From assembly GCA_903813345.2 (NCBI GenBank), contig CAIIXF020000011.1:28946166-29010165 (forward strand): a DNA stretch of 64,000 nucleotides, given 5' to 3'. The stretch comes from Owenia fusiformis. Taxonomy: Eukaryota > Annelida > Polychaeta > Sabellida > Oweniidae. This document shows, piece after piece, positions 5,832 through 62,896 of this stretch. Position 1 is the first letter of the stretch; each line of letters begins with the position of its first letter. Made by a program: the position numbers and the translations under genes. The notes below the pieces were generated by a model that was given only the letters and a program-made list of their open reading frames with translations, searched no databases and was not told the origin of the DNA.

Positions 5832-6473
5832 TTATTATCCCACCAAACGAAGTTCGAGGGGGATATAGAAAAGCCGTCCGTCCGTTCATCCGTCCGTCTG
5901 TTCGTCCGTCCGTTCGTGTGTCCGGGCAATGACTCAAATACCGGTTGATGGATTTCATTCAAATTTTATAGGCTTATGCCTTATGGGTGTAGGACCTCTG
6001 CTCGAGAAGGAATTTTCAATATGGCCACTAAATTCAAAATGGTGGCCATTTTTCGGAAAAAATATAATCTTTGATTACTCAAATACTAGTGGATGGATTT
6101 GGTTCAAATTTTATATGCTGTTGCCCAGGTACAAAGGAGCCTTGCTGAAGAAGACATTTTCAAGATGGCCACCATATTTCAAAATGGTGGCCATTTTTTG
6201 TAAAAAAATGTTATCTTTGATAACTCAAGTACCATAGAATGGATTTGGATCAAATTTTATATGCTGTTGCCTGGGTATAAAGGAGCCTTGCTCAAGAAGA
6301 CATTTTCAAGATGGCCACCATATTTCAAAATACCATTTGATGGATTTGGATTAAATGTATATGCTGATGCCTTTGGTGAGGGATTTGGCTCAAATTTTAT
6401 ATGGCCGCTATTTACCAAAACATGTTTTGTTCGGTGGGATTTGCTACTCCGTGGAGTTGCTGTTTTTCTAGTT
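5832..6473 (-). mobile_element. HINE/Helentron-like element, family 1 (copy A)
   Basis: Read on the minus strand, the 5' end is AACTAGAAAAACAG, then a mini-hairpin (ACTCC-ACGGAGT), then the subterminal repeat TCCCACCGAAC. The core has about three ATTTTCAAGATGGCCACC units, followed by a (GGAC)n-type microsatellite at 5874-5925. The 3' hairpin at 5836-5866 has an arm (GTTTGGTGGGA) that is the near-exact inverse of the subterminal repeat. There is no open reading frame, long terminal repeat or target duplication, as expected for Helentron-type insertion. Confidence 0.65.
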
Positions 6474-7355
6474 TCTTAATATTCCAGGGCTCAGGGCCCC
6501 ACAGGTAGAGAGAGAAGTTAATACTCTTACACACCAATCTAATTGTAGATACAAATATCAATATACTTGATACTTTTTTATTAACACATTAATTATATAT
6601 CATCTTTTTAGAGTGTAACGAACATAACATAGAGCAATACATATAATTTTGCTGGCAACTGGATCTCTCATGTACAGTATGAGCTGTAATTATGAATTAA
6701 GGTGGTTTCTCAGCTTAATGGCAATAAAATCTAATAACAAAGAAATTGGGTTTAAGATTTCTTTAGGGATTTATTTAATTTTGAAAATTTCAAATAAAAA
6801 TTAATATAAGAGGTTTTTTACATACTAAAACAAAATATTTCAACTTCTTTATTTAAAGAATTTATTTATTTATTTGCACTACTTACAGTGACATATATTT
6901 GCTGCATTGCTTAGCATTACAAGAGCACCCTGTAACCAAGTGAACCATCAATTCTTTATTTAGAAATTTGACAGTTATTTATTCATTTTTTTCAATGAAC
7001 CATGGATAATTCTGAAAAGCACAGTGAATATTAAATATTCTGCAAAACACAATCATATATAATATACAGTTATACTGGGTCTTCAAAGTATTTTCACAGA
7101 TTCATTTTTATTTGCAAAAAGTTTATGTTGCCATAGATGTAACATAAAATTTCTAACACCCTGTAAATTTTCGGAATATACCAGTACTTGAGGTAGTGTC
7201 CAATTTTGCATGTTGGTTTAACATGTTGTTACTTGAAATGGCAAACACAGCATTTGAAATGTGTTTTTGCAATGTATGTATTGTTTTTGGCAATTTGAGT
7301 GTGCTTGGCAGTAAATTAATAACTGAATGCATGCATGCACTACCCCACAATAATA

Positions 7356-7434
7356 CAGGTTGTCCCAGAAGTAAGATTACACATTCTACACCTAGAAATA
7401 TTTGATTTTGTCATCTTACTTGTGGGACACCTTG
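7356..7434. mobile_element. Tiny TA-flanked MITE (79 bp)
   Basis: CAGGTTGTCCCAGAAGTAAG faces its imperfect inverse (CTTACTTGTGGGACACCTTG), with TA on both sides (7354-7355, 7435-7436). It is little more than two terminal repeats. Confidence 0.6.
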
Positions 7435-7854
7435 TAATTCTTAATAGAAAATATTTATCTTTAACCCAAAGTGGGTTTAAATTTTTTCAGCCTTTAAGGC
7501 AAGATAATAGCTGACATTATCCTCTCATAAGGCATTTTACAAACAATTTGTTAAGCAAATTCCCCTAAAACACTTATGAGAGTAAACATATATAATCTAA
7601 TTTGTATTATGTACACTACAGTATGTACATCACTTTTACAACTATGTGTATTTGAGACAAGTTCCTCCAAATATTGCTAAACAATATGTGTGTTTACATG
7701 TAAACTTCCGTAGACTTCAAAAGCATCAAATCTTGTTGTAGAATGTCAAAGGAAACCAGATTTGTTTGTTTCTGCTTTCAACTATTTCATTTTAGTTTTG
7801 CTCTAGGATGGAGAAAAGACTCTTTCTTCATCCTAGGTTTTGCATCAAGTTTCT

Positions 7855-7931
7855 GCCCCCCCCCCCCCCCTCTCTCTCTCTCTCTCTTTAACTACCTTTC
7901 CCCCCCCCTCTCTCTCTCTCTTTAACTACCT
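7855..7931. repeat. (C)n(TC)n compound microsatellite, duplicated unit
   Basis: A C-run, then (TC)n, then TTTAACTACCTTT, repeated twice. Simple sequence only. The rest of 6474-9225 is spacer with no gene recognised. Confidence 0.8.
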
Positions 7932-9225
7932 TTTTCCTCACTTGGTATGTTTTTTTTATCTTTTAGAGAGAATAGGAATTGGAGACAAGAATGATGCAAA
8001 ATTAATTTTTCTAATCTATATTCATCCTAGATATTACTAGAGAACTGTTGGTCATTGTGGAATGTGCAAGTTCTAAGATATTACCTAACTAGTTATAGAA
8101 TATGGTTCATGTATGACATCACAGAGGCCATATATGACATCATTAACAGTCAGTTCCTCCGAGGTCTTGCTTATAGCAGTAATGGCTTCAATAGCTTAAA
8201 CATCTCAGAATTGTCCAACCAATAATGTATATCTAATATATGTATATAAGAAAAATGACTGATCTCTGCAAAAAATCATCTATTTTGGTTTGGGAACAAT
8301 ATCCAGGTTTAATGGATATATGTGTACCTTAGAATTGAAATGATAATTTAAAGAGATTAAAGCTTCCAAACCATAACTACATGGTTTGCAGCCCTTGATT
8401 AAGTTACTTTCCTGCTCACAAGGCTGGAAAGTCATCATCAATATAGACTAAAATGCATGTCATACATGAACCACATTTGTTGTCAGTAGTTCCTACTTCA
8501 ATTAGTTTACAGTTGAAAATAGAATTTGAAATCTTTACATAGGCCTAGTATTATCTTCATTCAAAATATTATGCATTGTTCACAATTTATTACTATGTAC
8601 ATAAATAGATAATTGCACCATTTTACAATGAATTTAACATGCAAATAATATATCCTTTCATTCGGATTTCATCTACAGTCACATCTACATTTGATTTTTA
8701 CATCGAGATTTTCTACCTCCTCTACATTGACTTGTGCAGCAATATATCTTATATATCCCATAATATTTTGTAAATATTATGGGATATGAATTCAAATTGC
8801 AATGCATTGTCAAAACTGCATCATTTTATGTCACTTTTTGTCACTCTCACTATTGCATGTCATGGACTCAATTTATTTACAAATATTTTAACCTTTGAGA
8901 TAATGACTTAATATATATATAAGGCCCACTCGAGCACAGCAGAGAAATGTAGTTTCGGGCTGAATTCTTAATATAAACAATTAAATATGTACTCTAGTGT
9001 GTTGAAAGAATATGGTAAAGATTTATCTATAAGTTCCGGCATGTTCTCTTAGATCTGATTGCTACATCACAGTGATCTCTAGTTAAAATGAATACTTTTT
9101 ATAAATGCTATCTTCCCAGATCATCTTTCTTCCAAAACCCACATTTGTAGTGTAGGCGATATGAATGCTAAATATCTTAAATATAAAAATAAATCTAAAG
9201 CGCCATATTTGATGAAAAAGCTTCA

Positions 9226-9494
9226 TTAGAAATCACTAGATTTGAACATGTCGACGAGTAAACGTCCCATTGGAATGTTACCAACAGTTTTCCTGAAGAA
9301 TAGTTCCTCTATAGTGTTGCCAGTGATTGTCTTAAGTGTGGGTAGCATGAGGAGGAGCTTGCCAAAACGGAATGGCTGTGTAGGATAGGCTGTTATAATA
9401 TACTTGTTTAGTGTCAATTGTGCCTGATCTTGTAAGCTATTAACAGTATGGAAGTCTCTTAGAGATTTCATTTCAGTTGGCGAACTTTCAAACA
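9226..9494 (-). CDS. NR2E1: NR2E1 last coding exon (helices 9-12)
   Basis: 269 nt from acceptor tctattttcag to TAA (9226-9228). It encodes [44 protein letters not shown] and the terminal [11 protein letters not shown]. The AF-2 end is present and not truncated. Confidence 0.96.
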
Positions 9495-12400: not shown

Positions 12401-15400
12401 ATAAGGTTAACAATTTGTAAATCACTTTAATTTACAAAAGTTTCTGTTGATGACTCCCACCTCCCTCTTCAAAATACATAGCAACTAGAACGATTTATGA
12501 TGAATAAGCTACCTATATAAGTAAAAACAATAGCAACTGATAACAATGGGTAGCTATAGAAAAAACTTAAGTAGGCCTACAGGTAAATTAAAACCATGAC
12601 AACAACCCTTCTAAACAAATAACATTGCTTGACAAATTAACTTTTCTAAAAAAAACTAGTTGTAAAAAAAACAATGGCAACTGATAAAAATAGGTAGCAA
12701 TAGAAAATACAAAAAAGTAAAAGTGCAGGTAAATAAAAACCATGACAACACATATATGTGTTTAACGTTTCTAATACAAACTTGGATGTAAACTTAGTTA
12801 TTATTATGATGATCATTTCAGCCCAATGATATTGTATTCAAATGTACATGTAAGAAACGGTACTCTTATTGGATACACTCCATATGAATAAAACCTATGT
12901 ATGTAGAAAACGTTACTTTTAATTTTATATATTTTCCATGTGTTAAACAGTCCTATTAATTTAATATACTAGTATTTCAGATTGTTCATTGGACTTTTCA
13001 TGTATTTGATTTGAACTCCATTTGAATTTACCCATGTTGGATTTTGGGGTAAAAATGCCAAAACTTGGTTCTACCTTTAATAGTACAGGTATTAAAAATA
13101 GGTAATTATTTTAACAATATTGAAATCTAATTAAGTGCATCATTAAAGATGAAAATAAATCCATTGGTTAGATACTGGTCACATCCCAAGGTCAACCATG
13201 GGTTCATATATTTTCAGAATGGCAGCCACATTGGCATTTAAAACTATTTTTCATTAATTCAACTCCATAGGACTATGGGAAACGCCAGCTTGACTGATGG
13301 ACACCTAAGAAACAAGTTGAACATCCAAGTCATAATACCAAATTAATAACTCCAATTATATCATGTCCATTCCATTCCTAATAAACTTGAAGTTAATACA
13401 CTGATAACAATAAAAACAGGGAAAATAATGAAGAACATCATGGGTTTTCAATTAGCCTTTACACAAAGGTCAGAATACAATATTGACAGAATGTTTATTT
13501 CCCAAGATTTCTAAACTAGTCATTGTTAAGTTGGCTTTGGAGCCTCGGGGGGTCATCACGCTATTCAGAAAATTTGCTGGCTTACTAGTGTATCAATACG
13601 GCTCTTTAATTTTTGCACTCTCAGTTATTATTGGCATGAATGATTCTAAAGGTGGAAAGGTACCACAATAGGAGTTCTGACAGTGTTTCTGATACATTCA
13701 TGGGATGCTAGTTAGTAGAGTCTCAACTTTCATCAAAGGTATTGTTAAGAAATGTTAGCTTTGTGTAAAATATCATAGAAGCCCTATAATTAAGTTTTAG
13801 ACTTTTACAAAAGTACATAGTTTAATTGAAGTTGTTTATGATTTGGTTTTGATTTTTTAAATGACAGGCGTTTTTAAAGGGCATTTGGTGATGTTAAAAA
13901 AACATTCGAATCTACTTGAAGGAATTAAACATATTGATATATAAAAAGCATATTTTACTCTAGATTCAAATAAAATATTAAAATAACATGTCAGTTCATT
14001 TGAAGTTTTAATAATCATTTTGCATTTAGAATATATCTGCTCTTGAGTGAAAAAATAATATTCATGTGTTCCTTGTTTGGTTTCCTTCCTGTGTTGTTAA
14101 TGTTACAATATTCTTAACATTATACATATACTCCCACCTTGCTTAGTGCCCCACATTGGCCAAGTATACCCATAATTCTGACTGAAATGGTCTTATAAGG
14201 ATGAACACAGCCCATCAGTCAATTGAAACCAAATTAATTGATACCCTAGCCATGGGCTACACAGGAAATGATCTAATAATCATAATACCCGAGTAGATTC
14301 ACAATAAAAACCACCCCATAGTAAACCTCATTGTTCAACTCAATTATTATTACATGGTCAAATGCTTTCAAAAAGTCCAGAAAACTGACATGGGTTTGTA
14401 TTCAGATATACCATCCAATGTGCACTGAGGCAAAATGTTTCCTCCTTGTAGTAACCACTAATTGGGGAATGATTAACTGTAGTAAGATATCACTTGAGAG
14501 TCTTTGATCTATGGGTTGTCATTTCTCTCTTGATATTAAACTTGGCGCCTTTCAGTTTTAACAACAGGGTGCCCACTCAAGACAAATTATTACAAATTGA
14601 GGCTATGGGTACAGGTTTGGATTCAAGTTAGATAATATGAATAAGCACTTCACTGTGGCCCCAGCATTAAATGACTTTTCGATTATATCATTCAAAGTGT
14701 CAATTTTCAAGATTTTCTTTGAATTTCCCCCTTGTATTTAGCGATCGCAGCTGAAGTTATATAGATTGGTTTTTAAAGAATAGGTGACACTCTGGTTGTG
14801 CGGTGAGATAGTTTCAAATGTTTCAACAGAATATGACTCAGGTGCACGATCTGTATTTGTTGTATCTCATGCTTCTTTTGAAATGTCAAAATGACAGTTT
14901 AGTTTATTCCATCATGCCATAATGTCACTTCAGTTTATTCACATATGATACACCGTGTTACTTGATTATTAGGCGCAGAAGATATATTTTTTATTATTAG
15001 ACTCCAGATGAAAATCTGGAGTCTATTGCTTTTGCCAGTTTTCTTATTATTATTATTCTTTCTTCCTCTTCCTCCTTCCCAGATTTCTCACCAACTAGAA
15101 GAGCTTACTTTAAGCTGCTTACATGATCAACTAGGGAATGTATCTGGGATGATGGGAAATTAGGTCAAATTTTTATCTAGGTCAAAGGTCAAGAACTAGG
15201 TCAAATCCAGTACTTTGTCACTTTTTTCAATTTTCTCGGTCGTCCTTCAATATTTTCAATCCGGGTTTTTTTCATTGTGTTCCTCATAAAAAAGTAGAAA
15301 ACCTAGGGTCGATTTAGTTTTTTGGTATCTCAAACCGATTTCGAGATATCAGTGTCCGAAAACGAGGTCCAAAAAAAAGTTCTCCGAATCCAATGTCCAG

Positions 15401-18400
15401 GATATCAGTCTTATAGGAAATTTTCTCAGGATTCCGAATCTGAAAACCAAATTTCGATCTGACTTCCGGTTCAGAAGTTATGGCGTTTTGAAAATTCAAA
15501 AATCGCTAAATTTGGTGCCCCATGTTAATTCAATGGGAAAAAATATTTTTTTGAAGTGTAAAATACGAGATATAGACTAAGCACAGCTAAACATAATGGA
15601 AGCCCATAAAAGAAAGGGACCTCAAGACCTTCTTTTCATAAAATTTTGGACACCAAAATGCCTAGGTCAAAATCTAGGTCAAATTCAAAGTTTTTCCTTA
15701 TTTTTGCGATTCTGACACTACAGATTAATTATATTCTTCGAAATTTTGTATACATAAGCCAAGAGTGTGCTTATAGTGGTAGCCTTTTGCCGTCAGAAAG
15801 TATTTTGACCCACTTTTGAGATATGGTGTCCGAAAAGTAGGTCAAAATAAAAATTTCTCCAAACTCAACGTGTGAGTTATGAATTAAGGAAAGAATTTTC
15901 TCAGGAATCCGAATCTGCAAACCAAATTTCGATCCGACTTCCCGTTCGGAAGTTATGGCGTTTTGAAATTTCGAGAAAAATCGATCTGATGGTATCCTGA
16001 TAGAAAGTCAAGAAAAAAAGATATTTTTTTGAAGTGTAAAATACGAGATATAGACTGAGTACAGCTTAAGATAATGAATTCCTATAAAAGAAGGGGACCT
16101 CAAAGGCAACCTAGTTTCAATATTTGGACACCAAAATGCCTAGGTCAAAATCTAGGTCAAATTCATAATTTTTCCTTATTTTTACGATTCTGGCACTACA
16201 CTTTTAGGATTTGCTTCGAAATTTTGTATACAGGTAGAAAAGAGTGTGCTAATAGTGATAGCCTTTTGCCGTCAGAAAGTATTTTGACCCATTTTTGAGA
16301 AATGGCATCCTAAAAGTGGGTCAAAATAAAAAAATCTCCAAATTTAATGTATGAGTTATGAAATAAGGGTAGAATTTTCCCAGGAATCTGAATCTGCAAA
16401 CCAAATTTCAATCCGACTTTCGGTCAAAAATTCCTACTTACCTACCTACCTACATACCTACTCGGCTACCTACTTAGCTACCTACTTCTCGGCTACCTAC
16501 TCAGCTACTTACTCAGCTACCTACTCAGCTGCTTACTCAGCTTCCTTCTCAGCTACCTACTCAGCTACTCACTCAATTACTTAATCATCTACTTACTCAG
16601 CTTGCTACTCAGTTACTTACTCAGCTACCTACTCAAGTAAATCAATCTGGAGTCTTAAATTGAACTTTGTTCAATTTACAAATCTAGTTCCAATTATTAT
16701 CTCTTTGAAAGTGTCATGCCAGCATGTCATCTGCAATATTCCTCAATGGCCTCATTCAGTAACTTAAATAGTAGAGTTCAATTGGCAAAGAAGAAGCTGA
16801 AAGAAGCATAGATGTTTATGTCCTTATGGCCCTAATGAAACTAATCAAACGTACTACGGTGGTTAAGTCTCCCTAAGGCAAGCTAAAAGTTACAAAAGTT
16901 TTGCCCAAGTTCATAATTGTTCAGTCAGGTGTTAAAATATAGGGGCGGATTGAATTTAAAGATCATAATGTTAATTGGTTTTTGGCTTGATCGACTTTCA
17001 ATAAGCTTCATTGATTTAAAATGTGGCTGTGACTCGAAGACAATGACATAGTTGAAGATAGACTTGTAGTAGAAGTCACTATGAATGCTGGTGTTGACAA
17101 TATACTAATTATTCACACAGAAATGAATTTATATTCCAATATGGCCGCACATCGCTGTAGTTTGAGATGAATCTGCTCTGCCATTTTTATTCATATTGGT
17201 CTTCTAAAAACATCTTTACAAATTTTCATTTCATTTCTTTTTTATTGAATTACTGATATATTAATATTTTATAAAGCGCATGAATGGAAATTTGAAATCA
17301 CAATGAACAAAAGGCATAACAAACACTCCGTATAATGTTCAAGAATGCATCAACGTTTATATATATCAGTCTTTGATTCACACCAGGCCACCGTAGACCA
17401 CCATGTTCTCTGTCAAATGAGAAGTTAATCTCCACCAACAGTCCATGATTGAGACAAATATTTTCAACATTGGCTTCACAATAAGGAATTAACTGCTAGA
17501 ATTACTTGAATTCAAACGACACTATCTCATATTTACCATACAACAACATATGTTTATTGTACTACATCATACGTGATTATCTCGCCAAAATTTGGCCCTC
17601 CCATATGGGTCTATGTACCATTTACAGTTTTCTATAGAAAGAATTGGCAGGTTTGTTTATACATGTATTAAGGAGGAGACCTGGTTTGTGTGGAAACTAT
17701 TGTCTACAAATTGGAATAGAAAAAGTTAAATTCGTGTCTATAGAAAATTGCTTGTGATTTCGAAGTCATCGTGAGGTGTCACTAAAACCTAAATATAATG
17801 CCAGTTTTAACAGTAAGACAAAATGCCAAGAATTAGCCAGTATTTTTTATTGACACAGCTGCACTGTGAGCGGATTTATCCGAATCAAAAATCTTGTCTC
17901 ACTTAGTGCATTTTGGACTTATTTTGATTGTTCTATTTTGTAGGCTCAGTTGGTAAATATGCCTTTTTGGACTCTTTTAAATGCTTTTAGTCCATGTAGA
18001 AAGGATTGGTGTTAAAGTTATTCTCTCGATTTGATTTTCGTGTATACCCTGGTTTGGCTATTGACTATTTATTGATAATTTATGAAGAATTTATTGACAA
18101 AGCTTTCAAAGGTGTTGGCCTCTTCTCACATAGAAATCAGTGGTTCTTTAAGTTGAAATATAGCACCCACTCAAGAACACCCCTCGAGTTGGTATTATCT
18201 CTTTTGAAATTTTTCAAATCCTCACTCTTGCAATTTTTTGCATCCCATTCTAGTGAATCTTTGGTTTTTATCTGTCTTCAGCTAACTGTTCTGGTTTTAT
18301 TGCATGTATTTATTGTTACTATTGAGATGTTTATGATTCCGTCTTGTTTGTGTTGTTTTTGAGTCTTTATAGGTGTTGTATATTGGAAATTAATCCCAGC

Positions 18401-39946: not shown

Positions 39947-39982
39947 ATGGGCTTTCAACTGGAGCTAATTGAAAGCCCATGA
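39947..39982. repeat. Isolated perfect hairpin
   Basis: ATGGGCTTTCAA and TTGAAAGCCCAT enclose about 12 bases. GGGCTTTCA also occurs at about 42912. Possibly a transposon end; not otherwise delimited. Confidence 0.4.
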
Positions 39983-40708: not shown

Positions 40709-40981
40709 AGGAGGATTGGCTCCCAGGGATGCAACTCGATATTTCCAAATGAAAATGTCAGAATGTTATTATTGTCTGACATAAAACTGCATGTTATCAA
40801 TTCATAATCACCAAAAATGGATTCGAGCTAATGTATTGATCACTTCTTGAGTTTTTAATTTTTTGTTTAAAATTAAGACTTAAACTCAAAATTCAATGAT
40901 TCGATTCAAAATTTGACATCCTTAAAAATCGGATTCATTGTTTGAAAATATCGAGATTGCATTCTGGGAGCCAATCCTCCT
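40709..40981. mobile_element. 273-bp MITE with AGGAGGATTGGC ends
   Basis: AGGAGGATTGGCTCCCAG and its inverse CTGGGAGCCAATCCTCCT continue inward through a CGATATTT(T) block. TGA flanks both sides (40706-40708, 40982-40984), which would suit a 3-bp target duplication (PIF/Harbinger-like), but 3 bp is weak. Confidence 0.65.
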
Positions 40982-47682: not shown

Positions 47683-48235
47683 GTTATTGAATGATTTGAA
47701 GTGCAATACAAGATATATTCTGCTCAAGAAATTCTGTATTGGAACGAGACTAAGTCGAGTGCCAATACAGAATATCGAGAGCAGATTATATCCTGTATTG
47801 CACTTCAAATCATTCTATAACGTTTTTATTGTGTGATTCTCTGTATTGCTATTGAGAATGTCCCTTCCGTACCAATATTTTCTGTATTGCGACGGAGATG
47901 ATCAATGGGGACAATCTTGGTATCAATATGGACTGGTACAGCACAGGAACTGACCAATCAGAAGGCTTAATTTTACAGATCATACAATAATATAAGTTAA
48001 TATATTCTATATAATATGAATGATTTGAAGTGCAATACAAGATATATTTTGCTCGAGAAATTCTCTATTAGTACGAGTATTCTCTGTATCGCTACTGACA
48101 TTGTCCCCTCTGTACCAATATTTTCTGTTTTGCTACGTAGATGATCAATGGGGGCAATCTCGGTATCAATACGGACTGGTACAGCACAGGAACTGACCAA
48201 TCAGAGGACATTATTTTACAGATCAAACGATAAAA
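47683..48235. repeat. Palindrome plus duplicated unit
   Basis: A palindrome of about 138 bp (47683-47820; GAATGATTTGAAGTGCAATA and its inverse) is followed by a unit starting ATTCTCTGTATTGCT at about 47837. That unit is repeated at about 48078 with the shared tail GACTGGTACAGCACAGGAAC. The left arm of the palindrome recurs between the copies at about 48018. A compound repeat; no coding content. Confidence 0.75.
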
Positions 48236-48963
48236 AACAAACAAGCTTTCCAGTATATTGCTTCCCAAGAAGTCTACTTCAGGCTTGATTGTTTTGTCAG
48301 TAAAGTATTTTTAGACATTGTATTTAATAAGCCATTAGAACCAATGAAGTGTACTGTATAGTACTTTATATACATTGTACTAAAACTTGCTCTAAGAATC
48401 AATGTAGTGTGCAGTACATTACATACATTGTACTTAAACCACAATTCTTTACATACATTGCACTTCATGGCCAGTCCATGTAATCGATGAAATAGTGTAC
48501 AGTATACAACACACACTGTACTAAACCAGTCCACACGAGCCATGTAGTATAGAGAATATTATACACTATAATATTACACTGTAGTATCAGGGCAGGCAAT
48601 TACTGGATGTAAATCTCTAAGTTGAAATCAAATTATGTGATCAGGTCTCAGATGAGTTCAACATCCAAACTCCATCGTTCCTGGATTTCACCAAACTAAG
48701 GGAGGATTAGTTGTATGTAATATTACATATGTGTTTCATACAATTATCACTGTCAAGCTTGTATGAAGAAAAAGTCAGTGATCATGCTCATAAAATTAGA
48801 CAACCATTGAATAACTATCGGTAGTCATTTCTCTCAAAAATCTTCAAAGAAGGTCCAGGATATAATGACACATGTAAACAGAAGTTAAAACCTGTAATAT
48901 CTGTATGTTTAGAATTTAAAATTGAGTATTGTAAGCTTGACAGTAATATAATAAAACAAACAT

Positions 48964-48969
48964 TTTATT
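48964..48969 (-). terminator. Candidate NUDC polyadenylation signal
   Basis: AATAAA on the minus strand 82 nt past the TAG. It is the first canonical hexamer seen downstream. Confidence 0.4.
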
Positions 48970-49050
48970 CTTCTGCGGTGAATGCCTGTGCCACTTGTGA
49001 TTATCCACGAAGCCCTTCTCCTTTGGAGAATGAAATAATTGTCTAATCTC

Positions 49051-49102
49051 CTAATTAAATTTACAGTTTGAGAAGTCCATTTCGGGATGTTGGGTCATGA
49101 AC
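49051..49102 (-). CDS. NUDC: NUDC last coding exon
   Basis: 52 nt from acceptor attcttttcag to TAG (49051-49053). It encodes [16 protein letters not shown], the family's exact C-terminal signature. Confidence 0.94.
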
Positions 49103-52100
49103 CTGAAAAGAATATAGAAGATTAAATAAGTTGCTTTATACAGGGTGATCATAAAGTAAGATCAAAAGTGCTCTAACTTTTGTAAACATTAATGAATTTA
49201 GCTCATTTTCTCACAGAATGTTGATCTATTAATTATACATACACAACATAAATTTTAATATGTTGCATTTAATATTGTGCGTTCTATGGTAACCATTGCA
49301 ACCCGTGTCAAGGGTACCCGGAACAGTCAAAAAAAGAAAGAAAATATTGCAATGTTTTCTTTCTTAATGGTTTTATATACTGGGACTACATACATATTTT
49401 GTTACATTCAATGCATTCTTCAATCTTGTACATCATCATTTTTTCAGATGTTCATTCTAGGCGTTCTATATATTTGCCATTATGTTCAATCCTTTTTGGC
49501 TCACCCAGTGAGCCTATGGGATCTACCAGGCGTCCGTCCGTTGGTTCGTCCGTCAATCCATCCGTTGGTCCATCCGTCCGTCAACATTGGCCGCACAAAT
49601 TAAAACTGCTATTCGGATTGAGTCATATTCACATTCATTTATGCATATCCATAATGCCTATTTGACCTATCATCGCCATTTCCCAAGTTCGCCCGGTTTC
49701 CGAGAAATTGCTGATTTTGACGTCAAAAAGTCAAATTTTCTGTAAATACTAGACACTTTGTTGAAGTAGAACTTTCAAATAACTTGTAGTAGTTGCTGTA
49801 CATGTAACTTATGTCCTCTGAAGATTTCAAAGCTCTTGGAATTACACTTTTTGGTGTTTACTCTATAAAATTTGACAAAAAGTAGGACTTGTCTTTTCAG
49901 GAAACTTTCTCATGTATAAAGTCAATGGCAGGTATTGTGATTGACAAGTTTCTCAAAGTTTGCCTTATACTTGATCATTTCTTGCAATGAATTACATCAT
50001 TACTAGATTTAAGCATTCCCTACATATTGCTCAATATATGTCAGCATCACATTTTTACCATTTTTGAGATATTTGACGTCAAAAAACAGTAAAAATAAGT
50101 TATTTTTCAACTTGCTTCAATTTAACCAAGTTCTTTTTTGAAAATCATCTACAAGTTGCCAGGAGTTCAAATCTGGCATTAGTTTTAGGATTTGACCTTT
50201 ACTTGACCTTCAGTGACCTTCGAAAGGTAAAAAAAGTTGAATTTTCAAATTGATTTTTGAAAGTAAATCTTGGTCAGCTTAATCACAAAAGAACTTACTG
50301 AGCTCTGAATAAGTAAAATTTTCAAGGTCAAAGCTCATCAAACTAGGTCACACAACTGTGCTATCTAAGTGTCTCAAAGTCCGAGACAACAAATCCAAAT
50401 CAATATTTATGTTTGAAAGTCAGGATATACATTCCTCTGAAGGTTCCAAACTGTGTGAGCACAGGACCGTGGGTCCTTTATTAAGGATTTTTAATCCATG
50501 AAGTCCATGAACACATGCTTGAAGCCACCTTCACTTATCACATGCATTCCGACAAATACCACCTTTTTAGATCCTCGTCTGTCATGAAAAAACCTCTTCA
50601 TAGTTCATATTTTAAGTCCCAAAATAAAACTGAGTGAGTCATGTCTGGTGAGTAAGGGGCAATACCAAGTTGTTCAAACCCTTAAAGCAGATATGAAATG
50701 GTATTTTTAACCTAAAGGAATCAATATAATTTTTTGATAGATGTATTTGGACATGTTTTCTCATCAGTAGTGTGAAAACTATTTCACTCTAACGATCGTT
50801 ATAGCTGCTTAATAAGCAATATTCGAATTGGTTGTGACGTTATTGGCCCCCACGTGATCTCTCACTGGTCCCCACGTGGCCCGTTTTGGTCCATTAGATC
50901 ATGACGTCATAATGCCAAAATGTTTTGTTATTTGTTTATACAACAATCCTATGGTTGCCGTGACGTTGTGATTACTATGGAACCAATAAACCAAATCTAA
51001 TATTTTGTATATGACGTTACTAATCACGTGGGGGCCAATTTGATTTATCAGTTAGTTTTATTTCGTTATCTATGACCGTTAGCAGTTATCTAACATTTAC
51101 TTTACAATGGCTATCGCAAGAACTCTACGATGGGCTTACAATGGAGAAAACCGCATTCTTGTAGCTGCAAGTTGAGAAAAGCTATTTCACTAATTTCAGT
51201 TGTCCTTTAACTTTCCATTTGCTTCTTTGTTAGACTTGGCAAGGTACATTATCCCAATGCAGGATGAAGTGATCTACCAACTTTGGTCTTTTCTTGCGAT
51301 TGGCATTCAAACATGTATTCATAGACTGGATTAAACGTCATGAAAAGTGTGTTGAACTTGATAGCAAATAGTATAACACCTAAAATGAACATCTGAGAAA
51401 ATAATATTAAAGATGAATGGAACAAAATATGGTGGTATTCCCAAAGTATAAACCAATTAAGAAAGAAAACATTTCATTATTTTCTTTCTTATTTTGACTG
51501 CTCCGAGTACCCTTGACTTGGGTTGCCATGTTTACCATAGAACGCAGAATATTAAATGTAACATGTTGACATTTTGTGCATGTATAATTAGTAGATCAAC
51601 ATTCTGTGAGAAAATGAGCCAGATTCATTAATATTTACAAAAGTTATAGCACTTTTGATCTTACTTTATGATCACCCTGTAGTGTCATTGATTCATTCTC
51701 ATCGATATCTAGGGATTTGAAGAATTCAAATTATCTCTATTATTGTTCATTAACAGTTTCTTTATCATGTGTTAATGTGCATGTATACTTTTTTGAACGT
51801 GCTCTCACATAATATCCTGTTTCTTTATCATGTGTTAATATAAATGTATGCTTCTTTGAAAATGCTCTCCCAGGGTAATTTATTAATGACATCATACTAT
51901 TCACTCACTTTTTCATCATATCCTGTTTTTTCTGATCATCTGAAGTTGGCAGACCCATTTCTTTCTGGCGTTGGTCATACATCATTTTCTCCACCATACC
52001 TCTTGTTTCACCATCTAAATCTGAAAGCTATATACCCAGATGGTTTACCTCATGTTAAGAAAGGTTAATAATAAGAAGAACATGTACACATTTCTTAGTA

Positions 52101-55100: not shown

Positions 55101-58100
55101 GAAAGAGTGTTATTCCAAATCTTTCTCTTGTATGCAGTAAGTACATGTACTATGATTTGTGCCTACTACCAAGTCAGTTGATAAAAGAACAAATAAATCT
55201 TAATCATATTCCCTTATATACAAATAGATGTAAAAGGGTTTCTTACTTCTAATTCTTCTAGCGTTTGAGTCCAGCAGTATTTGTCCATATCTGCTCCATT
55301 ACCAGAGTTGGGTTTTAATTTTCCCTTGTCTTTTTCATCTTCTTCATCTGAATCAACCTAGGAGTGAAAAGGTACATGCTTAGGTTATGGTACATAAATA
55401 CAGGGTTGCTATAATAAGAGGGCATTAACATGACAAAATTAACCAGAACAACGGCAACGCCAAAGCGTAGCGAATCCCATCGAACAGAAATGGCTGGCAT
55501 TTTTACAAACGAATAGCAAATATCATAAAACAACACACCAGAAAGGCCACCATTTTCAAAATGGTTGCTCACGAGCCAAGTTGTCATCAGAAGAAATAAT
55601 ATGCTTTTAAGTAGCCACCTCTAAAATTTTGGAAAAATCGCACACTTACTTGTAAAATAACAAACATAAAAATGGTGGCCATTTTTCAAAATGGCCGACT
55701 ACTCCCCAAAGTTTTATTAGACAATGTGCCATGCTTAAAGTATTCACATATCAAATATGAACAAAATCGCTCCACTACTTTTCGAGTTATAGTAAAATAC
55801 GTTAAAATGGCGGCCATTTTTCAAAATGGCCACTGTCTACCAAAAGTGTCATTAGAAATAGACAGTGTGCCATGCTTATAGTATTCACATACCAAATATG
55901 AACAAAATCACTCCACTACTTTTCGAATCATTGTAAAATACATTAAAATGGCAGCCATTTTCCCAAATTTTTTTCAAAATGGCCGCCTTCTACCAAAAGT
56001 GTCATAGGACAGTGTGCCATGCTTATAGTATTCACATACCAAATATGAACAAAATCGCTCCACTACTTTTCGAGTTATAGTAAAACATGTTAAAATGGCG
56101 GCCATTTTTCAAAATGGCCGCCTTCTACCAAAAGTGTCTTTAGACAGTGTTCAATGCTTATAGTATTCACATACCAAATATGAACAAAATCGCTCTACTA
56201 TTTTTTGAGTTATAGCAAAAATCGTAAAATGACGAGAAAAGGCCGCCATTTTTCAAGATGGCTGCCATGCGCTTCTTTAATATCTACATTTGTAGCATTA
56301 TTAATGTCCTTTATAATTTTTTTACATTTAAAACATATTGCTATTACAGTTTTACATGTTACACCTAAATTACTGTAAAATCGGCACTAAAATGGCCACC
56401 ATTTTGAAATGAGCAGCCATTTTGAAAATCGGCTTTCGAGCAGAACTTCTACTCCCATAGGGTATATGTGTACAAAATATGAACAAAATCGGGCCAACGG
56501 TATTTGAGTTATTGCCCGGACGGACGGACGGACAGACGGACGGACGGACGGACGTATGTACGGACGTACGTACGGACGGACGGACGGACGGACGGACGGA
56601 GGCGTTCCCTATATCCCTCCGAACTTCGTTCGATGGGATAAAAAACATGTCAGGCATACCATTCCTTTTCAACATTGTACTTAAAAGTAAATAATATTAT
56701 ATGGCCTATGTGTATGCTGTATTTATGGAAAATTCAAGCCTATGAGAAATGATGAGAGCAAAAGCAAAAATCATTGTAAATTGTGGACAGAATTAAAAAT
56801 TTACTGTCACCCAGTCTCTATCCCTTCAATTCCTTAAATGAAAAAATGTTTGATTTTTCATGTCCCACTCGCCTAAGATTAAGCCACTAGATAGGGGACT
56901 AAACATTTAATTTACTTTGAATGGTCTAATATATATTTAGTAGGGGTGAGACGACAACCCGATGAGTCGAGGACTCGCGGGTTTGGGGCTTCGAGTCGAG
57001 TCGAATCGAATCGAAGTTGATGAATCGAATCATTTTCGAGTTGAGAAAAAAATTCGAAAAAATAAAAAAATTCAGAAAAATACTGTCAATATGCATGTTT
57101 TTACTCGATATTGCGTTGAATATATAAGTTTCAATGACTTGGATATGCTTGTATTAAATTATTATATTGTATGTACACATAAATGAAAGAATATATGTAA
57201 TAAAATCAGAATAAACTTACGACGAATTGTGTTTGTTTATATTTCCGGCTTTCCACCATTGACCGCATTAAAAATACGAACGGTCAAAAGCGATGTTGTT
57301 CGCACTTCGCGCGACTCGAACGGATTCGAAACTCGAATCGTCATTTTCTGACTCGAATCAGATTTGACTCGAATTGGATTTTTTCGACTCGTCTCACCCC
57401 TAATATTTAGGCAAAAAATTTATTAACTGAATATTGAATAAGGATGTGTTAGTGGATGAGCTCGGACCATATTTTTACTCACACTATTGCATTTTTATAA
57501 TTATGTTTATTATTTGTAGTTTATCATTTGTCATTGATTTTGAAAATAATAGGGTCTAGTTTTTCAGCCTCTTCGAATAATTGCCATTTATACCCCCCCT
57601 TGCTACTTTTATGAGGGGGTAATACGATAAGCATTAATAATTTATGTTCTATATCTCCAATCAAATTTATATTTCTAGGGAGTATGTATCTATATATAAC
57701 AAGTTTCCATGACAAGTTTGATCATGCTTGGTCAAGTGGTTGCCATGGCAACACAACTTAAGTGTGAAAAATTGTAAATATTTCGGATAAATCCACAAGT
57801 TCTTTAAAAGGTAAACAACTGGTAATCTCTTCGGATTGTTCCAATCAACATGAAGTTGACTTTGAAAACATATTTAAGGAGTTTTGAATGAGAGAATGTG
57901 ACTAAAATGATTAATTTTATGATATCTATGACTCTAGTTAATATTCCTATTTGGTCACTATCATTCAAACTACTTAAAAGTGGACATGGCTCCTTTAGAT
58001 AACAATCTTAAATAACTTCTGTTATGTACCTCCAATCATGTTCATACTTTCAGGAACTATGTATATACATATAGTGAGTTGATATAGCAAGTCTGATCAT

Positions 58101-61100
58101 GTTTGATTAAATGGTTGCCATGGAAACGTGCATGCAAACAATTGTAGCTATTTCAGATTAACAAGTAACTGCTGATCGATCTCTTAAACCAATCAAAATA
58201 AAGTTGTGTTCAAAACCATTTTTGGTCAATAAAACAGCATGATTCAGATGATTATTGGTAATTGGTTGCTATGGTAACACAAATGAATGGCATTGTTCTT
58301 TGTAAATATACTTGTTTGGCTTGTGTGGTTCATTTAGATTCATTTTTGTATTGTTCACTGTTTTTCTTTAAAATACTATTTTAATTTCTATGATATATAC
58401 ATATTTACAACATCATATTATGTCCTTATTTAATTAGCTGAACTACAGGGTGTCCCAAAAGTATGCCCCCACCGGGGCCCCCACTATGCAGACATATACC
58501 AATATCTCCATAGTATGTGTCCTATATCATTTTGATTTTGATCATGATTTGTGTCTCCCTAGGCCATGTTAACAGCAGCAATGTTTTTCATATATGACCC
58601 TTAACGCGCTTCAAATAGGGATGTGGCATTTTGTAATCCTCAAAAAATTTTGTTAAGCCATTTTAGAAGAGTTTCATTGGAGTATCTACCCTTAATGTCC
58701 TCTTTTTCGAACTCAATATCCATCCTATATTCGTCAATAGCACCCATATTAATGGTCACATTCAGGTCAGGGCTGTTTCCAGGATACTAAAATGAACTAT
58801 ATTTTTGGCTGAACATTATTAAGTTTTGAAATACCTGTAACTTTTTACCATTTGTGAGCTGAACCATGATATTTGGCAAATCAATGTAACTTTGGATAAG
58901 CTTTAAAATGATATATGGAACATACCATGGAAACATTGTATACGTCTGCCTAGGGGGCTCATACTTTCGGGACACCTTGTACATATTAGTATGGTGAGGT
59001 AAGTTAGAAACATTGTTCTGTATGTCTTCACAGCCTGCTGTTTCGATTTGCATCACCTCAGTGTAGGCCAGACAATGTCTATTACGATTCATTAATGTAA
59101 CGTAGTGTCTGGGCTAGTAAATAATGTTTTGGCATGTTGCGAGACAAATATCTTGTCCAATAGAATGCACCAGCCGCTGTTGTTTCTCATTTAATGTCTT
59201 GTTCTCATTGCCCTGGAGGAGATTCATTAAAAATTCCTTAGGAGCATTTGGTATGGATTTGTACATTCTATTTGAAGTTCTGATGTTCTTGGGGGCCAAT
59301 TCAATGAGGGGTATTTTGTTTTGGCATTTAATATGATGTGTCTTAGATGCGACCCAGCATTGGTCAATAGATCTTGTTCTGAATTGATATTCTTATGAAA
59401 AGCCTCTGCATTAGATTTTTCAGGGATGCCCCTTAAATTAGCAAATACAAGTTCATTTTTAAATGAAGATTCTTTTGGGCAATAGAAATTGAGTTTATTC
59501 CCTAAATGAATACTAAGTCCATTTTTGAAGTTATTTAATAACCTTCTGTACTTTGGTGCAGGTTTGGTTGGATTATGTTCACTCATGTGTTTGGAACATA
59601 TTGTGAAGAGAGTCTAATATAACAATTACGGGACCACCGTTTCATTTATATATTTGCAAATAAATGTGAATGATGAATCAATTACTTTTTCACATGTATT
59701 TGTGTTTTGGCGTTTACTGGCCAGGTAATATTTTCTGCATGAATTATGGTACATTGCTTTTGCAGAAACTGTGCAACGTCTACTGATTTTTGCATGCAGA
59801 GTCCAGTCTTTTTCAATGACTGCATTCAATATTGACTTTGATGCAGTATCAGTTTGACGTTTTGCTAGAGTTTCTCTTGTATTTCCCTTTTGATATTTCT
59901 TTTATTTATCACAAAACAGGTACGCTATAGAAGGCTGAATATGTTAAGATCTATCAATATAAGAACACAGAGTAGGTTCTGTTAATTAATCAACCATGAG
60001 TTGATATCATTGACTAATAGATGAATTCAGTCATGTTTTCTTAAAACCAACTCCTATGACATGTTTTCAAAGTCAACCTTTTATTGATTGGTACAATCTG
60101 GAACTATGTGTATATTTATCAAATTGTTTATACTTCTTTACAAGTAAGTTGTGTTTCCATGGCAATAATTTCACCAAGCATGATCAGACTTGCTATATCA
60201 ACTAATTATATATACATACATACTCACTGAAAGTATGAATGTGGTTGGAAGTATATAACATGAATTACTCAAGATAGTTACTTAAAAGTGCCACGCCCAC
60301 TTTTGAGCAATGTGAATGGTAGTGACCAAATAGAGTTATGGACTAGAGTCATAGATATCATTAAATTAATTATTTTAATCATGTTATTTCATTGAAAACT
60401 CCTTAAATATGTTTTTAAAGTCAGCTTCATGCTGATTGGTGCAATCCAAAGAGATTAGCAGTCGTTTACCTTTTAAAGAACTGGTGGATTTATTCGAAAT
60501 ATTTACAATTTTTCACAGTTAAGTTGTGTTGCCATGGCAACCACTTGACCAAGCATGATCAAACTTGTCATGGAAACTTGTTATATATAAATACATACTC
60601 CATAGAAATATAAATTTGATTGGAGATATAGAACATAAATTATTGATGCTTATCGTATTACCCCCTCATAAAAGTAGCTTGGGGGGTATAAATGGCAATT
60701 ATTCGAAGAGGCTGAAAAACTAGACCCTATTATTTTCAAAATCAATGGCAAATGATAAACTACAAATAATTAACATAATTATAAAAATGCAATAGTGTGA
60801 GTAAAAATATGGTCCGAGCTCATCCACTATGTGATTATAAAAAATATGTGAACTGTTATCAATAAGAACTTACCCCTTCTTTCCCATCTTCAGGTTTATC
60901 TTTTGGTTTATCATCAGGAGTGCCCTAAAATCAGACAAATAAATATTCAGATTGTATAAATTGAAACAAACCTAAATATTCATTAGTTCCAGAGGACCAA
61001 TTTTCATGTTTCCATTATGTATCTGATTAAAGTTATCTGTCCAATACAAAAAATTTTTTTTTTCACATGTAGATTTCAAATCACTTTATCACTGATTAAA

Positions 61101-62170
61101 TTTTGAATATTAAAGTTAGTATCTATATATATATAGTAGAGTACATGTAGATACATTAGGGAGTTTAGCTTGCAATATTTTTCACAACCTAAACGTGAAC
61201 GGAAAATATTTAAGCGATGCATTTGTATGGGCAATTGGTCATACATTTAGGTTGGCGTTTCAATTCAATATGCAACCTTAAACTGCCTATTGTTTGATTA
61301 TCAACTTATGTTCACATGAATAGAAAATATCTTAGAAATATGAAAATGAAAAAATGACTCATCAATTCATTATTAATTCAATAAAATATGACATGCTCTG
61401 TTAAATAATTTGTCAAAACATTAAAGACTTAAATGTTGAACCCATCATGGTTTTAGACAAAAAAAAAATATATAATTTGGGTATAAGACAGATCGACACA
61501 TACTTTCAATGCCTGTTACCCATGCCCTTACATCTCAAAAAACCCTATACAATTTGTACAAAGTAGAAATTGGACTGAAAGCCTATGACTATTATGTAGA
61601 AGCCTTTGTACTCTTACATTACTGATTTCTTTTTGCATCTGCTCAGCTTCTTCATCTGTAATTTCTTTAATTTTTGGCTCTTCCATTTGCTTGCGTTCCT
61701 CTTCTTCTTTCTTCTTTTGGCGTTCCTTTCTTCGTCTCTCTGCCTCTTCACGCTCCTTCTTTGCCTGCTCTTTGGTTTCTAGGGCTGATTTTTGAAATTT
61801 CTTGAAATTTTTCATGATTAGCTGCAATGAAATATTTCTTAAAATTTATTACTTAATTCTGTGTTCACCATCAATTGTTTCAATAAAACATGAAAAAAAC
61901 ATTGAAAAGGATGTCAAATCATTATTTATTACGTCTGGGATTCTGAAATCTAATTGAACACCAAACACCAAATTAACAAAACACATATAAGTTAGACTGA
62001 TTTGATTCTAAATGATAATTTGGTGAAAGTAGATTTCACTTTTCATGAATTTAAACATGGAGTGGAAAATTATTTTTAATATCTACCTCTTCAGCTTGGT
62101 TTGAGTCCAGGCCAGTCCCAGTATAGAAGTCTGTTTTTCTGGCAAGGAAACTAAATATCACCTCTAGCAT
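49051..62170 (-). CDS. NUDC: NUDC, nuclear distribution protein C (all but the N-terminal exon)
   Basis: Nine coding exons in transcription order: 62087-62170, 61618-61821, 60874-60924, 55247-55357, 54828-54896, 54121-54246, 53530-53613, 51909-52027, 49051-49102. They total 900 nt (299 residues plus TAG); the first seven are exact multiples of three. NUDC is a cytosolic Hsp90-linked chaperone that stabilises dynein/LIS1 components and serves nuclear migration and mitosis. Visible in order: N-terminal helix [13 protein letters not shown]; a charged K/E-rich coiled coil; [17 protein letters not shown]; acidic linker [15 protein letters not shown]; the CS (p23-like) domain from WTQTLEELE through [13 protein letters not shown] to KMEWWSRVV; and the tail [20 protein letters not shown] then [11 protein letters not shown]. 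About 25 N-terminal residues are missing, presumably in an exon right of 64000; I find no start exon in 62171-64000. A minus-strand AATAAA at 48964-48969 suggests a 3' UTR of about 100 nt. Confidence 0.95.
49494..50485 (-). mobile_element. HINE-like element, family 3 (copy F), nested
   Basis: Read on the minus strand: mini-hairpin GGACC-CAC-GGTCC, subterminal TGCTCACACAG, a core without open frames, a GGAC-type microsatellite (49530-49580), then the 3' hairpin GGCTCAC-TGG-GTGAGCC followed by A-run. GCTCAC is shared between the subterminal repeat and the hairpin arm. Confidence 0.55.
50841..51043. repeat. Nested inverted-repeat element (CACGTG ends)
   Basis: TTGGCCCCCACGTGAT and ATCACGTGGGGGCCAA face each other about 200 bp apart, with a further CCCCACGTGG inside. 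It is nested in the 49141-51679 element. Confidence 0.6.
51909..52027 (-). CDS. NUDC: NUDC exon (conserved tail)
   Basis: 119 nt, acceptor gggtatatag, donor AA|gtgag. It encodes [20 protein letters not shown] and [18 protein letters not shown]. The two leftover bases are completed by G at 49102. Confidence 0.94.
53530..53613 (-). CDS. NUDC: NUDC exon (end of CS domain)
   Basis: 84 nt, phase 0; acceptor ttattttcag, donor AAA|gtaag. It encodes [20 protein letters not shown] and the following PENSK. Confidence 0.95.
54121..54246 (-). CDS. NUDC: NUDC exon (CS domain core)
   Basis: 126 nt, phase 0; acceptor tattttcag, donor AAA|gtaag. It encodes [20 protein letters not shown] and [14 protein letters not shown], the GLKG...IDGEL core. 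Confidence 0.95.
54828..54896 (-). CDS. NUDC: NUDC exon (CS domain)
   Basis: 69 nt, phase 0; acceptor gttattttag, donor AAA|gtaag. It encodes [20 protein letters not shown], a beta strand pair of the CS fold. Confidence 0.93.
55247..55357 (-). CDS. NUDC: NUDC exon (acidic linker and start of CS domain)
   Basis: 111 nt, phase 0; acceptor cactcctag, donor GAA|gtaag. It encodes [20 protein letters not shown] and [11 protein letters not shown], near-identical in pattern to vertebrate NUDC. Confidence 0.95.
55441..56645 (+). mobile_element. HINE-like element, family 1 (copy B) with tandem core
   Basis: Starts AACCAGAACAACGGC, mini-hairpin ACGCC-AAA-GCGT, subterminal TCCCATCGAAC. A tandem core follows, then a (GGAC)n microsatellite (56517-56600) and the 3' hairpin whose arm GTTCGATGGGA is the exact inverse of the subterminal repeat. 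It lies in the NUDC intron 55358-60873. Confidence 0.72.
55743..56250. repeat. Tandem 134-147-bp repeats with GGCCAT pairs
   Basis: TTCACATAYCAAATATGAAC recurs at 55743, 55884, 56031 and 56165. Each unit carries ATGGCGGCCAT-type and AAAATGGCCGCC-type motifs in inverted arrangement. Confidence 0.9.
56941..57402. mobile_element. hAT-type MITE (462 bp)
   Basis: The ends TAGGGGTGAGACGA and TCGTCTCACCCCTA are flanked by an exact 8-bp duplication, ATATTTAG (56933-56940, 57403-57410). Subterminal regions are rich in ACTCGA/TCGAGT repeats, typical of hAT ends. No coding capacity. Confidence 0.9.
58446..58979. mobile_element. Nested TA-flanked MITE (534 bp)
   Basis: CAGGGTGTCCCAAAAGTATG faces CATACTTTCGGGACACCTTG. 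TA lies on both sides (58444-58445, 58980-58981). Confidence 0.8.
59114..59829 (-). pseudogene. Decayed protein of a fold-back transposon
   Basis: Three minus-strand fragments, N- to C-terminal: 59626-59829 ([19 protein letters not shown]), 59227-59586 ([18 protein letters not shown]) and 59114-59299 in another frame ([27 protein letters not shown]). The AxYHxxC-R-Y and NWPP...FL-LL-G...QR--SI-QDI patterns recall a long uncharacterised protein common in repeat-rich invertebrate and cnidarian genomes. A frameshift lies near 59230-59290 and stops separate the first two parts. No transposase catalytic motif is seen. Confidence 0.55.
60874..60924 (-). CDS. NUDC: NUDC short linker exon
   Basis: 51 nt, phase 0; acceptor ctgattttag, donor GGG|gtaag. 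It encodes [17 protein letters not shown], a low-complexity charged linker. It rests on splice sites, phase and position; it could be alternatively included. Confidence 0.75.
61618..61821 (-). CDS. NUDC: NUDC exon (coiled coil)
   Basis: 204 nt, phase 0; acceptor ttcattgcag, donor AAT|gtaag. It encodes a Lys/Glu/Arg-rich coiled coil and the family motif [17 protein letters not shown]. Confidence 0.95.
62087..62170 (-). CDS. NUDC: NUDC exon (N-terminal domain)
   Basis: 84 nt, phase 0 on both sides; acceptor gcttttacag, donor GAG|gtaga. It encodes [20 protein letters not shown]. The leading ATG is an internal Met by homology, not the start. A HINE-like element begins 19 nt upstream of this acceptor. 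Confidence 0.93.
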
Positions 62171-62189
62171 CTGTAAAAGCAGAAAGTGT

Positions 62190-62896
62190 AACTAGATAGC
62201 TGCAACTCCGCGGAGTAGCAAATCCCAACGAACAAAATATCAATTACCGAATTCTAATCAATTATACTCATTACTTTGGTTAAAATTGAAAAATTTAGAT
62301 TTTAGAATTGCGAATTCCTGCAAAGCAGCCATTTTGACTTTTCTGAGGTACAAATCTGAAAAATAATACCATAATAATTGTGATCTACTCCAAAATTCCT
62401 TCAATTTGAGTATTATATAGCCATACTTTGAAGGGATCGAAAAATTAAATGCGAAATCGTACATTAGACGGCCATTTTGAATTTTACAAGGCTCGAATCA
62501 GAAAAAAAAGATACAATATTTGCCTCTTATTGCCTTTCATTTGAGTATAATAAAGCTATACCTCAGAAAAATCTAAAAATTAGCGAAAATTTTTGTTTTC
62601 CTGACCCCCCATACACGGCCCCTGGGGGTCAGGATGAAAAACACAGAATATATGTGAAATAGATAGATGTTGCGAATATACTACCAAAATTTCAAACAAT
62701 AATATCAATTGCTTTGGTTTAGAATGAAAAATTTATGATTTTTTTTTGCGTAAAGCTATTTATCAATATACATCTTTCCACCAAATATGAAGAAAATCCG
62801 TCAACTAATATTTGAGTTATCTTCCGGATGGACGGACGGACTGACGGACGGAGGGCTTCACTATATCCCTACCGAACTTCGTTCGTTGGGATAATA
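62190..62896 (+). mobile_element. HINE-like element, family 1 (copy C)
   Basis: Starts AACTAGATAGCTG, mini-hairpin ACTCC-GCGGAGT, subterminal TCCCAACGAAC. A short GGAC microsatellite (62828-62852) and a 3' hairpin with arm GTTCGTTGGGA, the exact inverse, then ATAATAA. The core diverges from copies A and B. Its 5' end is 19 nt from the NUDC acceptor. Confidence 0.7.

Follow-up and report, generated by a model that had tools for sequence, protein, structure and literature searches.

HINE copies in the window

The window, a stretch of 64,000 nucleotides from Owenia fusiformis, contains five short elements, copies A, B, C, E and F (Table 1). All five are HINEs, non-autonomous members of the Helentron/Helitron2 group, a familiar class of rolling-circle mobile elements. 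Their subterminal inverted repeats (subTIRs), 3′ palindrome and insertion at TT support the affinity to HINEs and Helentrons proposed in an earlier sequence-only reading. The 5′ end consists of TTA or a T-run and then the ATIR, which folds into a hairpin with the sequence just downstream. The 3′ end carries the inverse ATIR, a short terminator hairpin and CTnG followed by T (in F, a T-run). TTA precedes TCCC in 27 of the 28 T-, A- and C-type copies parsed in our end census, and 24 of the 28 have CTnG and then T at the 3′ end. The census parsed 28 of 30 loci (without L062 and L063); the end table orients 28 of 30 (without L015 and L062). With cmscan at gathering thresholds, the window gives no match to an RNA family.

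Table 1. Coordinates of the HINE copies and protein-coding Helentrons. ATIR positions of copies on the minus strand are given on the plus strand.
Feature	Position	Strand	Sequence and remarks
HINE copy A ('C-type' ATIR)	5835..6471	+	from sequence, other copies and TRF
A, 5′ ATIR	5837-5848		ATCCCACCAAAC; within 5′ hairpin; other C-type copies ATCCCACCGAAC
A, microsatellite	5874-5917
A, 3′ ATIR	6429-6440		GTTCGGTGGGAT; 3′ hairpin 6443-6460; end CTAG, then T
HINE copy B ('T-type')	55443..56641	-
B, 5′ ATIR	56628-56639		ATCCCATCGAAC; microsatellite 56517-56600
B, 3′ ATIR	55474-55485		plus strand ATCCCATCGAAC; 3′ hairpin 55454-55471; end CTGG, then T
HINE copy C ('A-type')	62192..62894	-
C, 5′ ATIR	62881-62892		ATCCCAACGAAC
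C, 3′ ATIR	62222-62233		3′ hairpin 62202-62219; end CTAG, then T
HINE copy E	14994..16687	+
E, 5′ ATIR	14999-15009		AGACTCCAGAT; hairpin 14998-15023; other copies AGACTCCAGATTGA, 14 bp
E, 12-bp repeat array	16433-16635		adjoins 3′ end
E, 3′ ATIR	16645-16655		ATCTGGAGTCT; 3′ hairpin 16657-16677; end CTAG, then T
HINE copy F	49493..50478	+
F, 5′ ATIR	49499-49509		GCTCACCCAGT; hairpin 49498-49514; 6 of 6 fetched copies GCTCACACAGT
F, microsatellite	49533-49578
F, 3′ ATIR	50450-50460		ACTGTGTGAGC; 3′ hairpin 50463-50477; T-run end
Helentron H	C11:29198329-29210187		11.9 kb; inserted in B-type HINE
OTU Helentron, C6 copy	C6:36015152-36054471		39.3 kb; loci L087, L077, L026, L021, L022, L079
OTU Helentron, C1 copy	C1:21095499-21130675		35.2 kb; middle part not fetched

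The published 5′ end is the motif that folds with downstream sequence and is followed by a microsatellite; A, E and F are therefore plus-strand copies, and B and C minus-strand ones. At the 3′ end, published descriptions of Helitron2, DINE-1 and HINE termini place the inverse motif and then a hairpin (PMC3627910, PMC2374699, PMC4067079, PMC7492417). Against this convention the sequence-only reading had the elements reversed. What it called the 3′ hairpin is the known 5′ end, the ATIR/subTIR with its partial inverted repeat, and its '5′ mini-hairpin' is the known 3′ terminator hairpin. The single order of parts that it assigned to all copies holds for A, B and F, in which a microsatellite sits beside the 5′ motif (and by eye for C); it breaks down in E, where the repeat array sits beside the 3′ motif. 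Nor are the cores unrelated, as had been claimed. Copies A, B and C have 66-70 bp in common at the 5′ end (80-90% identity) and 36-52 bp at the 3′ end (78-87%), and A and B share a further 178 bp (78%). Over 379-392 bp the core of F shares 77-78% identity with sequences close to both termini of the OTU Helentron described below, and that of E is 69-72% identical to the same element over 134-190 bp.

Boundaries and target sites

Three empty sites were seen, all with a TT target. The first is a B-type HINE that Helentron H interrupts at C11, of which window copy B is the empty form. For the second, the insertion at L003, 39 places among the matches listed span the joined flanks with three fewer bases; one of the 39, L082, was read. 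The third belongs to L059, which is inserted in a minisatellite. Counting from the A before the motif to CTnG, each of the three insertions leaves two extra T at a TT. These may be element-borne or a 2-bp duplication, and the account of DINE-1 termini by Yang & Barbash (2008; PMC2374699) states the same TT ambiguity. The empty sites led us to reject canonical Helitron ends (TC to CTRR, between A and T) for A, B and C: the flanks joined on that basis are 3 bases longer than these sites. The elements also depart from the Helitron1 description (5′-TC to CTRR-3′ between A and T, without inverted repeats), since inverted repeats are present. In a dimer of E, CTAG is directly followed by TTATTAGACTCC. 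Judged by the empty sites, this junction and the breaks in homology, the ends of the elements coincide with the hairpins, as the sequence-only reading had supposed.

Arrays of E (L033 with L034, C5:33378700-33393300, and L036, C12:22256880-22257260) contain tandem 5′ ends of ~54-60 bp with TTATTA between them, and three units without the first ~53 bp stand directly after CTAG. The arrays fit two origins: E landing repeatedly in the TTATT tract immediately downstream of its 5′ hairpin, or duplication driven by microhomology. In the right flank of L002, ~40 bp past a B-type HINE, there is an H-like 5′ end in a decayed state (ATGCCACCACCAAGAAGTGGTGACAC).

Correspondence between the two ends

Inverted motifs lie near both ends of all five window copies. 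Compared as terminal 60-mers, the two ends share a perfect inverted match of at most 8 bp in A, 12 bp in B and C, 11 bp in E and 6 bp in F; for random pairs of 60-mers from the window, 500-1,700 apart, matches of at least 11 bp occurred in 53 of 19,679 draws. Copies A and F look weak because they are decayed. When C-type ends are typed from other copies the inverted match is 12 bp, and all six fetched F copies carry GCTCACACAGT/ACTGTGTGAGC, an 11 bp match.

The genome (498 Mb, 525 contigs) holds 4,705 forward and 4,666 reverse matches to TCCCANCGAAC, a pattern with one variable base; read backwards, the pattern gives 217 and 210. Two counts were made of how often this base agrees between the ends. 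The first took the first 100 matches listed (C1 0-5.3 Mb) and neighbours within 3.5 kb; the base was equal in 29 of 33 plus/minus neighbours, one mismatched pair only 104 bp apart being included (20,000 shuffles: mean 14.6, maximum 24). The second used looser, separate end patterns over C1 0-9.05 Mb, with 82 5′ ends and 99 3′ ends, and omits the last 3′ place and the last 18 5′ places among those listed, the two lists ending at different positions. Here the base was equal in 52 of 58 pairs (shuffles: mean 26.2, maximum 40) and differed in the other 6; four bases agreed in 48 of the 58, and 24 of the 82 5′ ends lacked a 3′ partner within range. The counts overlap in place and are not independent. 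They agree with the earlier proposal that the ends change together, as does the way in which the motifs track each other across families.

Agreement inside a family is largely inheritance, and the independent evidence is the number of lineages, not of copies. Matched inverted ATIRs are found in seven lineages (T, A, C, E, F, H and OTU), two of which are protein-coding. The inverted repeats are 12 bp long in T, A and C and 11-14 bp long in E; those of F and H measure 11 bp, and those of the OTU Helentron only 8-9 bp. Hairpins are predicted at both ends, as in the ATIR description of Helitron2; the 3′ hairpin has at least 4 predicted pairs in each of the seven lineages and is weak in H (-2.8).

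Among T, A and C the base at the far end tracks the variable base exactly, whereas the opposite arm of the 5′ hairpin in the same element does not. The predicted hairpin partner of the variable base is G in T (a wobble pair), none in A, and G across a bulge in C. The relation that has been kept is thus end-to-end, with the proviso that in C the local hairpin could also pair. A fourth form of the variable base, G, is rare, with 11 places genome-wide when counted in the hairpin form. Six of the 11 were fetched and a 3′ end was found in five; in none of the five was it complementary, as expected for decay after insertion. Matching is therefore a property of the founders, and the mismatches look like later decay.

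Protein-coding Helentrons

The Rep family PF14214 has 58 matches in the genome, many in frames of 2,000-3,400 codons. Two Helentrons with a Rep and a helicase share the end design of the window copies. In Helentron H the Rep and Pif1 domains score over the cut-off. Its C-terminal part is 25% identical to the endonuclease of the OTU Helentron (E 7e-14, a single comparison), and this endonuclease-like part is below the cut-off in Pfam. All three copies whose 5′ end was seen have ATGTCACCACC there, and all four whose 3′ end was seen have GGTGGTGACAT and a hairpin; of the C47 copy only the 3′ end was seen.

The T-type 5′ and 3′ ends that flank H at C11 had suggested an autonomous partner of B. We reject this because three other copies of H (C6, C10 and C47) lose homology just inside those ends, and also because window copy B is the empty site of the insertion. 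The seemingly perfect partner of B is another Helentron inside a B-type HINE, a case in which a nested insertion mimics an autonomous partner. At C11 H has two tandem 5′ ends of ~50 bp each, joined at a T-run, the same kind of feature as the E arrays; the 5′ end is single in C6 and C10.

A relative of H at C1:4.667 Mb has a 2,053-codon frame, and its protein shares 51-58% identity with the H protein. Its 5′ end (L039:500-553, C1:4658500) is 81% identical to H over 54 bp and has the same ATIR, ATGTCACCACC. In its fetched 3′ flank the best inverse (L040:2813) is GGTGGGGACAT, with one mismatch and no clear hairpin behind it. The element may be autonomous with mismatched ATIRs, and so a counterexample, or incomplete; it was left out of the lineage count.

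The OTU Helentron has OTU, Rep, Pif1 and Exo_endo_phos domains over the cut-off, in one frame of 3,200 codons antisense to the orientation of the element. It also contains long tandem arrays of 154-308 bp, and the C6 copy has a B-like HINE inside. Its 5′ end was placed where the two copies stop being alike. From this end it was predicted beforehand that the other would consist of the inverse of AGGAGGCCCC, a hairpin and CTnG. At the homology break both copies read GGGCCTCCGTAAGATTGCTTGCAATCTTCTAG followed by TT, with 8 of 10 motif letters as predicted, a hairpin, and CTAG before TT. The resulting ATIR pair is GGAGGCCC/GGGCCTCC. As a control, GGAGGCCC or its inverse is at 8 places listed in 271,036 fetched bases, and 7 of the 8 are at such ends. 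The match between the two ATIRs is 8 bp (9 bp beside the E dimer), shorter than the 10-11 bp 5′ hairpin of the element. Two predictions were registered in all. The other one, on a putative 'I-type' ATIR, is void, as the motif arose at the join of two unrelated flanks in a concatenated query.

E and the OTU Helentron have subterminal sequence in common (score 81, at most 31 in 300 letter shuffles), and the similarity extends beyond the simple TTATT tract (score 62, at most 25 in 200 near-dinucleotide shuffles). The ATIRs of E and of F nevertheless differ from those of the OTU Helentron at both ends while matching within each element.

An autonomous element was sought, as proposed with the earlier reading: the two Helentrons above agree in end design, but their termini are not those of A, B, C, E or F, and no autonomous element with such ends was found in the fetched flanks of Rep loci. 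No ends were recognised in the flanks of the Rep locus at C5:12.4 Mb, none of the known motifs at C2:24.6 Mb, and no ends at C12:19.5 Mb, where there is one loose match to the H motif (L024:2538). Two long pairs of ends on C1, L029 (C1:88526-94687) and L032 (C1:766245-776220), contain no match to the protein of the C11 Helentron and have other frames inside. Both are HINE copies enlarged by other sequence that starts in the CCGT microsatellite. L029 has an 807-codon frame without Pfam or NCBIfam match, which may resemble a Penelope-like reverse transcriptase; L032 has a YqaJ frame (SWIM below the cut-off) and a DDE_Tnp_4 transposase.

Relation to known elements

The blueprint, the turnover of subTIRs and the compensatory changes have all been described in published work (Yang & Barbash 2008; Bao & Jurka 2013; Thomas 2014; Coates 2015). 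The '5′ mini-hairpin' and the covariation across families, put forward as new in the sequence-only reading, are likewise in print in the first two of these papers. For DINE-1, Yang & Barbash (2008; PMC2374699) report 13-bp subTIRs that vary from one Drosophila species to another; next to the 5′ subTIR lies a partial inverted repeat, the microsatellite is (CCGT)n(CTGT)n, and the central repeats are unrelated. In the same paper the 3′ hairpin is maintained through compensatory changes, and insertion is in TT. Bao & Jurka (2013; PMC3627910) give compensatory changes in the ATIR and hairpin of two related elements, and Thomas et al. (2014; PMC4067079) describe Helentron partners and subTIR-based family rules. 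SubTIR lengths given in the HINE and Helentron literature are 11-15 bp.

Like the DINE-1 and HINE elements of these accounts (PMC2374699, PMC4067079), the Owenia copies have subTIRs of lineage-specific sequence (the 5′ one with a partial inverted repeat next to it), a GTCY-type microsatellite, a variable core, a 3′ hairpin and TT insertion. They differ in the subTIR sequences themselves and in the repeat array on the 3′ side of E; whereas DINE-1 is described as lacking Helitron termini (PMC2374699), 24 of the 28 parsed T/A/C copies in Owenia have CTnG before T. With Helitron2 as described in PMC3627910 they share terminal inverted repeats that are asymmetric, a hairpin at each end, compensatory changes and a Rep that is sometimes in reverse orientation, but the Owenia coding elements carry an endonuclease-like domain, as Helentrons do. 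The Cg_HINE elements of Crassostrea gigas (PMC7492417) are alike in the 5′ subTIR, inverted repeat and microsatellite (GTCY and similar in several), in the 3′ subTIR and palindrome, and in the preference for TT. That account describes its HINEs as not relatable to autonomous elements, whereas Owenia has two autonomous Helentrons with the same end design, though neither carries the termini of any of the five window copies. Coates (2015; PMC4344730) shows much the same layout in lepidopteran Hel-2, with a 5′ inverted repeat, an inverted repeat in subterminal position, (CTGT)n downstream of the 5′ motif, a 3′ stem-loop and a 3′ CTAG; that element is described with 5′-TC and A/T flanks, unlike the Owenia elements, whose empty sites leave two extra T. 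New here are two autonomous Helentrons whose ends match, a prediction that agreed in 8 of 10 letters, and natural sets of relatives with exchanged ATIRs. The paired-end rule of Helentron-type elements is thereby supported for protein-coding elements with unrelated motifs in one genome.

Interpretation of the matched ends

That the mobilising protein would pair or read both ends, as suggested in the sequence-only reading, is plausible. Our preferred interpretation, to which we assign a probability of roughly 0.7, is that the 5′ and 3′ ATIRs are one Rep-helicase recognition site, present in inverted orientation and read at each end, and that the pair changes as a unit. We infer Rep recognition, strand peeling and selection on the pair. 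A lineage-specific Rep-helicase would nick the 5′ site and peel off a single strand from it; the end of the element would be found at the matching 3′ ATIR and hairpin, and the peeled strand would then be inserted at TT. An element would multiply only if one enzyme fits both of its sites, and each switch of a lineage to a new site would therefore change the pair as a unit. With about seven lineages it is difficult to tell selection from shared descent.

In the model proposed by Bao & Jurka (2013; PMC3627910), the strands themselves pair: the 5′ ATIR comes out of its hairpin to form a duplex with the 3′ ATIR, and this marks the end point of replication. Predicted DNA energies favour the ATIR:ATIR duplex over the 5′ hairpin in six of the seven lineages: -16.8 vs -7.6 in T, -16.6 vs -8.3 in A, -17.4 vs -8.7 in C, -17.2 vs -12.0 in E (-13.3 vs -11.6 in the window copy), -15.3 vs -7.1 in F and -15.8 vs -11.0 in H. 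The variable base in T, A and C is also complementary end to end and not consistently so within the hairpin. The OTU Helentron is the exception, with -13.5 for the hairpin and -12.8 for the duplex (-14.6 with the 3′ end beside the E dimer), and the duplex energies omit the cost of bringing distant ends together. In inverted repeats identity amounts to complementarity, so that sequence alone cannot tell pairing from protein reading. We consider strand pairing unlikely; reading by a protein is the likelier of the two because it needs no further assumption.

It is improbable, in our view, that the copies match simply since each family goes back to one founder, without selection on the pair. Most parsed copies within a type are near-identical at their ends and the mismatches behave like post-insertion decay, both of which such descent would explain. 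However, the founders themselves match in seven lineages, and relatives (T/A/C, E with the OTU Helentron, F with the OTU Helentron) differ at both ends and still match internally.

Concerted evolution is comparably doubtful. Here the ends would adjoin in a circular intermediate and fold back, and repair would copy one ATIR onto the other, so that both ends change together without a selected intermediate. In T, A and C one position has changed at both ends with no matching change in the neighbouring hairpin arm, which is consistent with this, as is the direct end-to-end junction in the E dimer, although the dimer can also be two adjacent insertions. It is a long shot that related Helentrons swap the whole ATIR pair by such copying of one end onto the other in a circular intermediate; a swap of this kind would change the recognition code in one step and provide an escape from competition by an element's own non-autonomous parasites.

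Terminal-inverted-repeat MITEs moved by a DDE transposase would also be short, non-coding and bounded by inverted repeats, and a 2-bp TT duplication is indistinguishable from element-borne TT, but here the ends are asymmetric, the 3′ motif lies in a subterminal position, and a Rep-helicase is encoded by both of the protein-coding elements of this blueprint, all of which makes this explanation very improbable.

Our preferred interpretation, a Rep that reads both ends, and the pairing of ends could be compared directly on the T/A/C set and on E with the OTU Helentron, which are ready substrates for this purpose. A further subfamily has the T-type motif with TTTGCTAC outside it; it is represented at L074:642, with a CTAG end, and by 14 of the 99 3′ ends of the second count.
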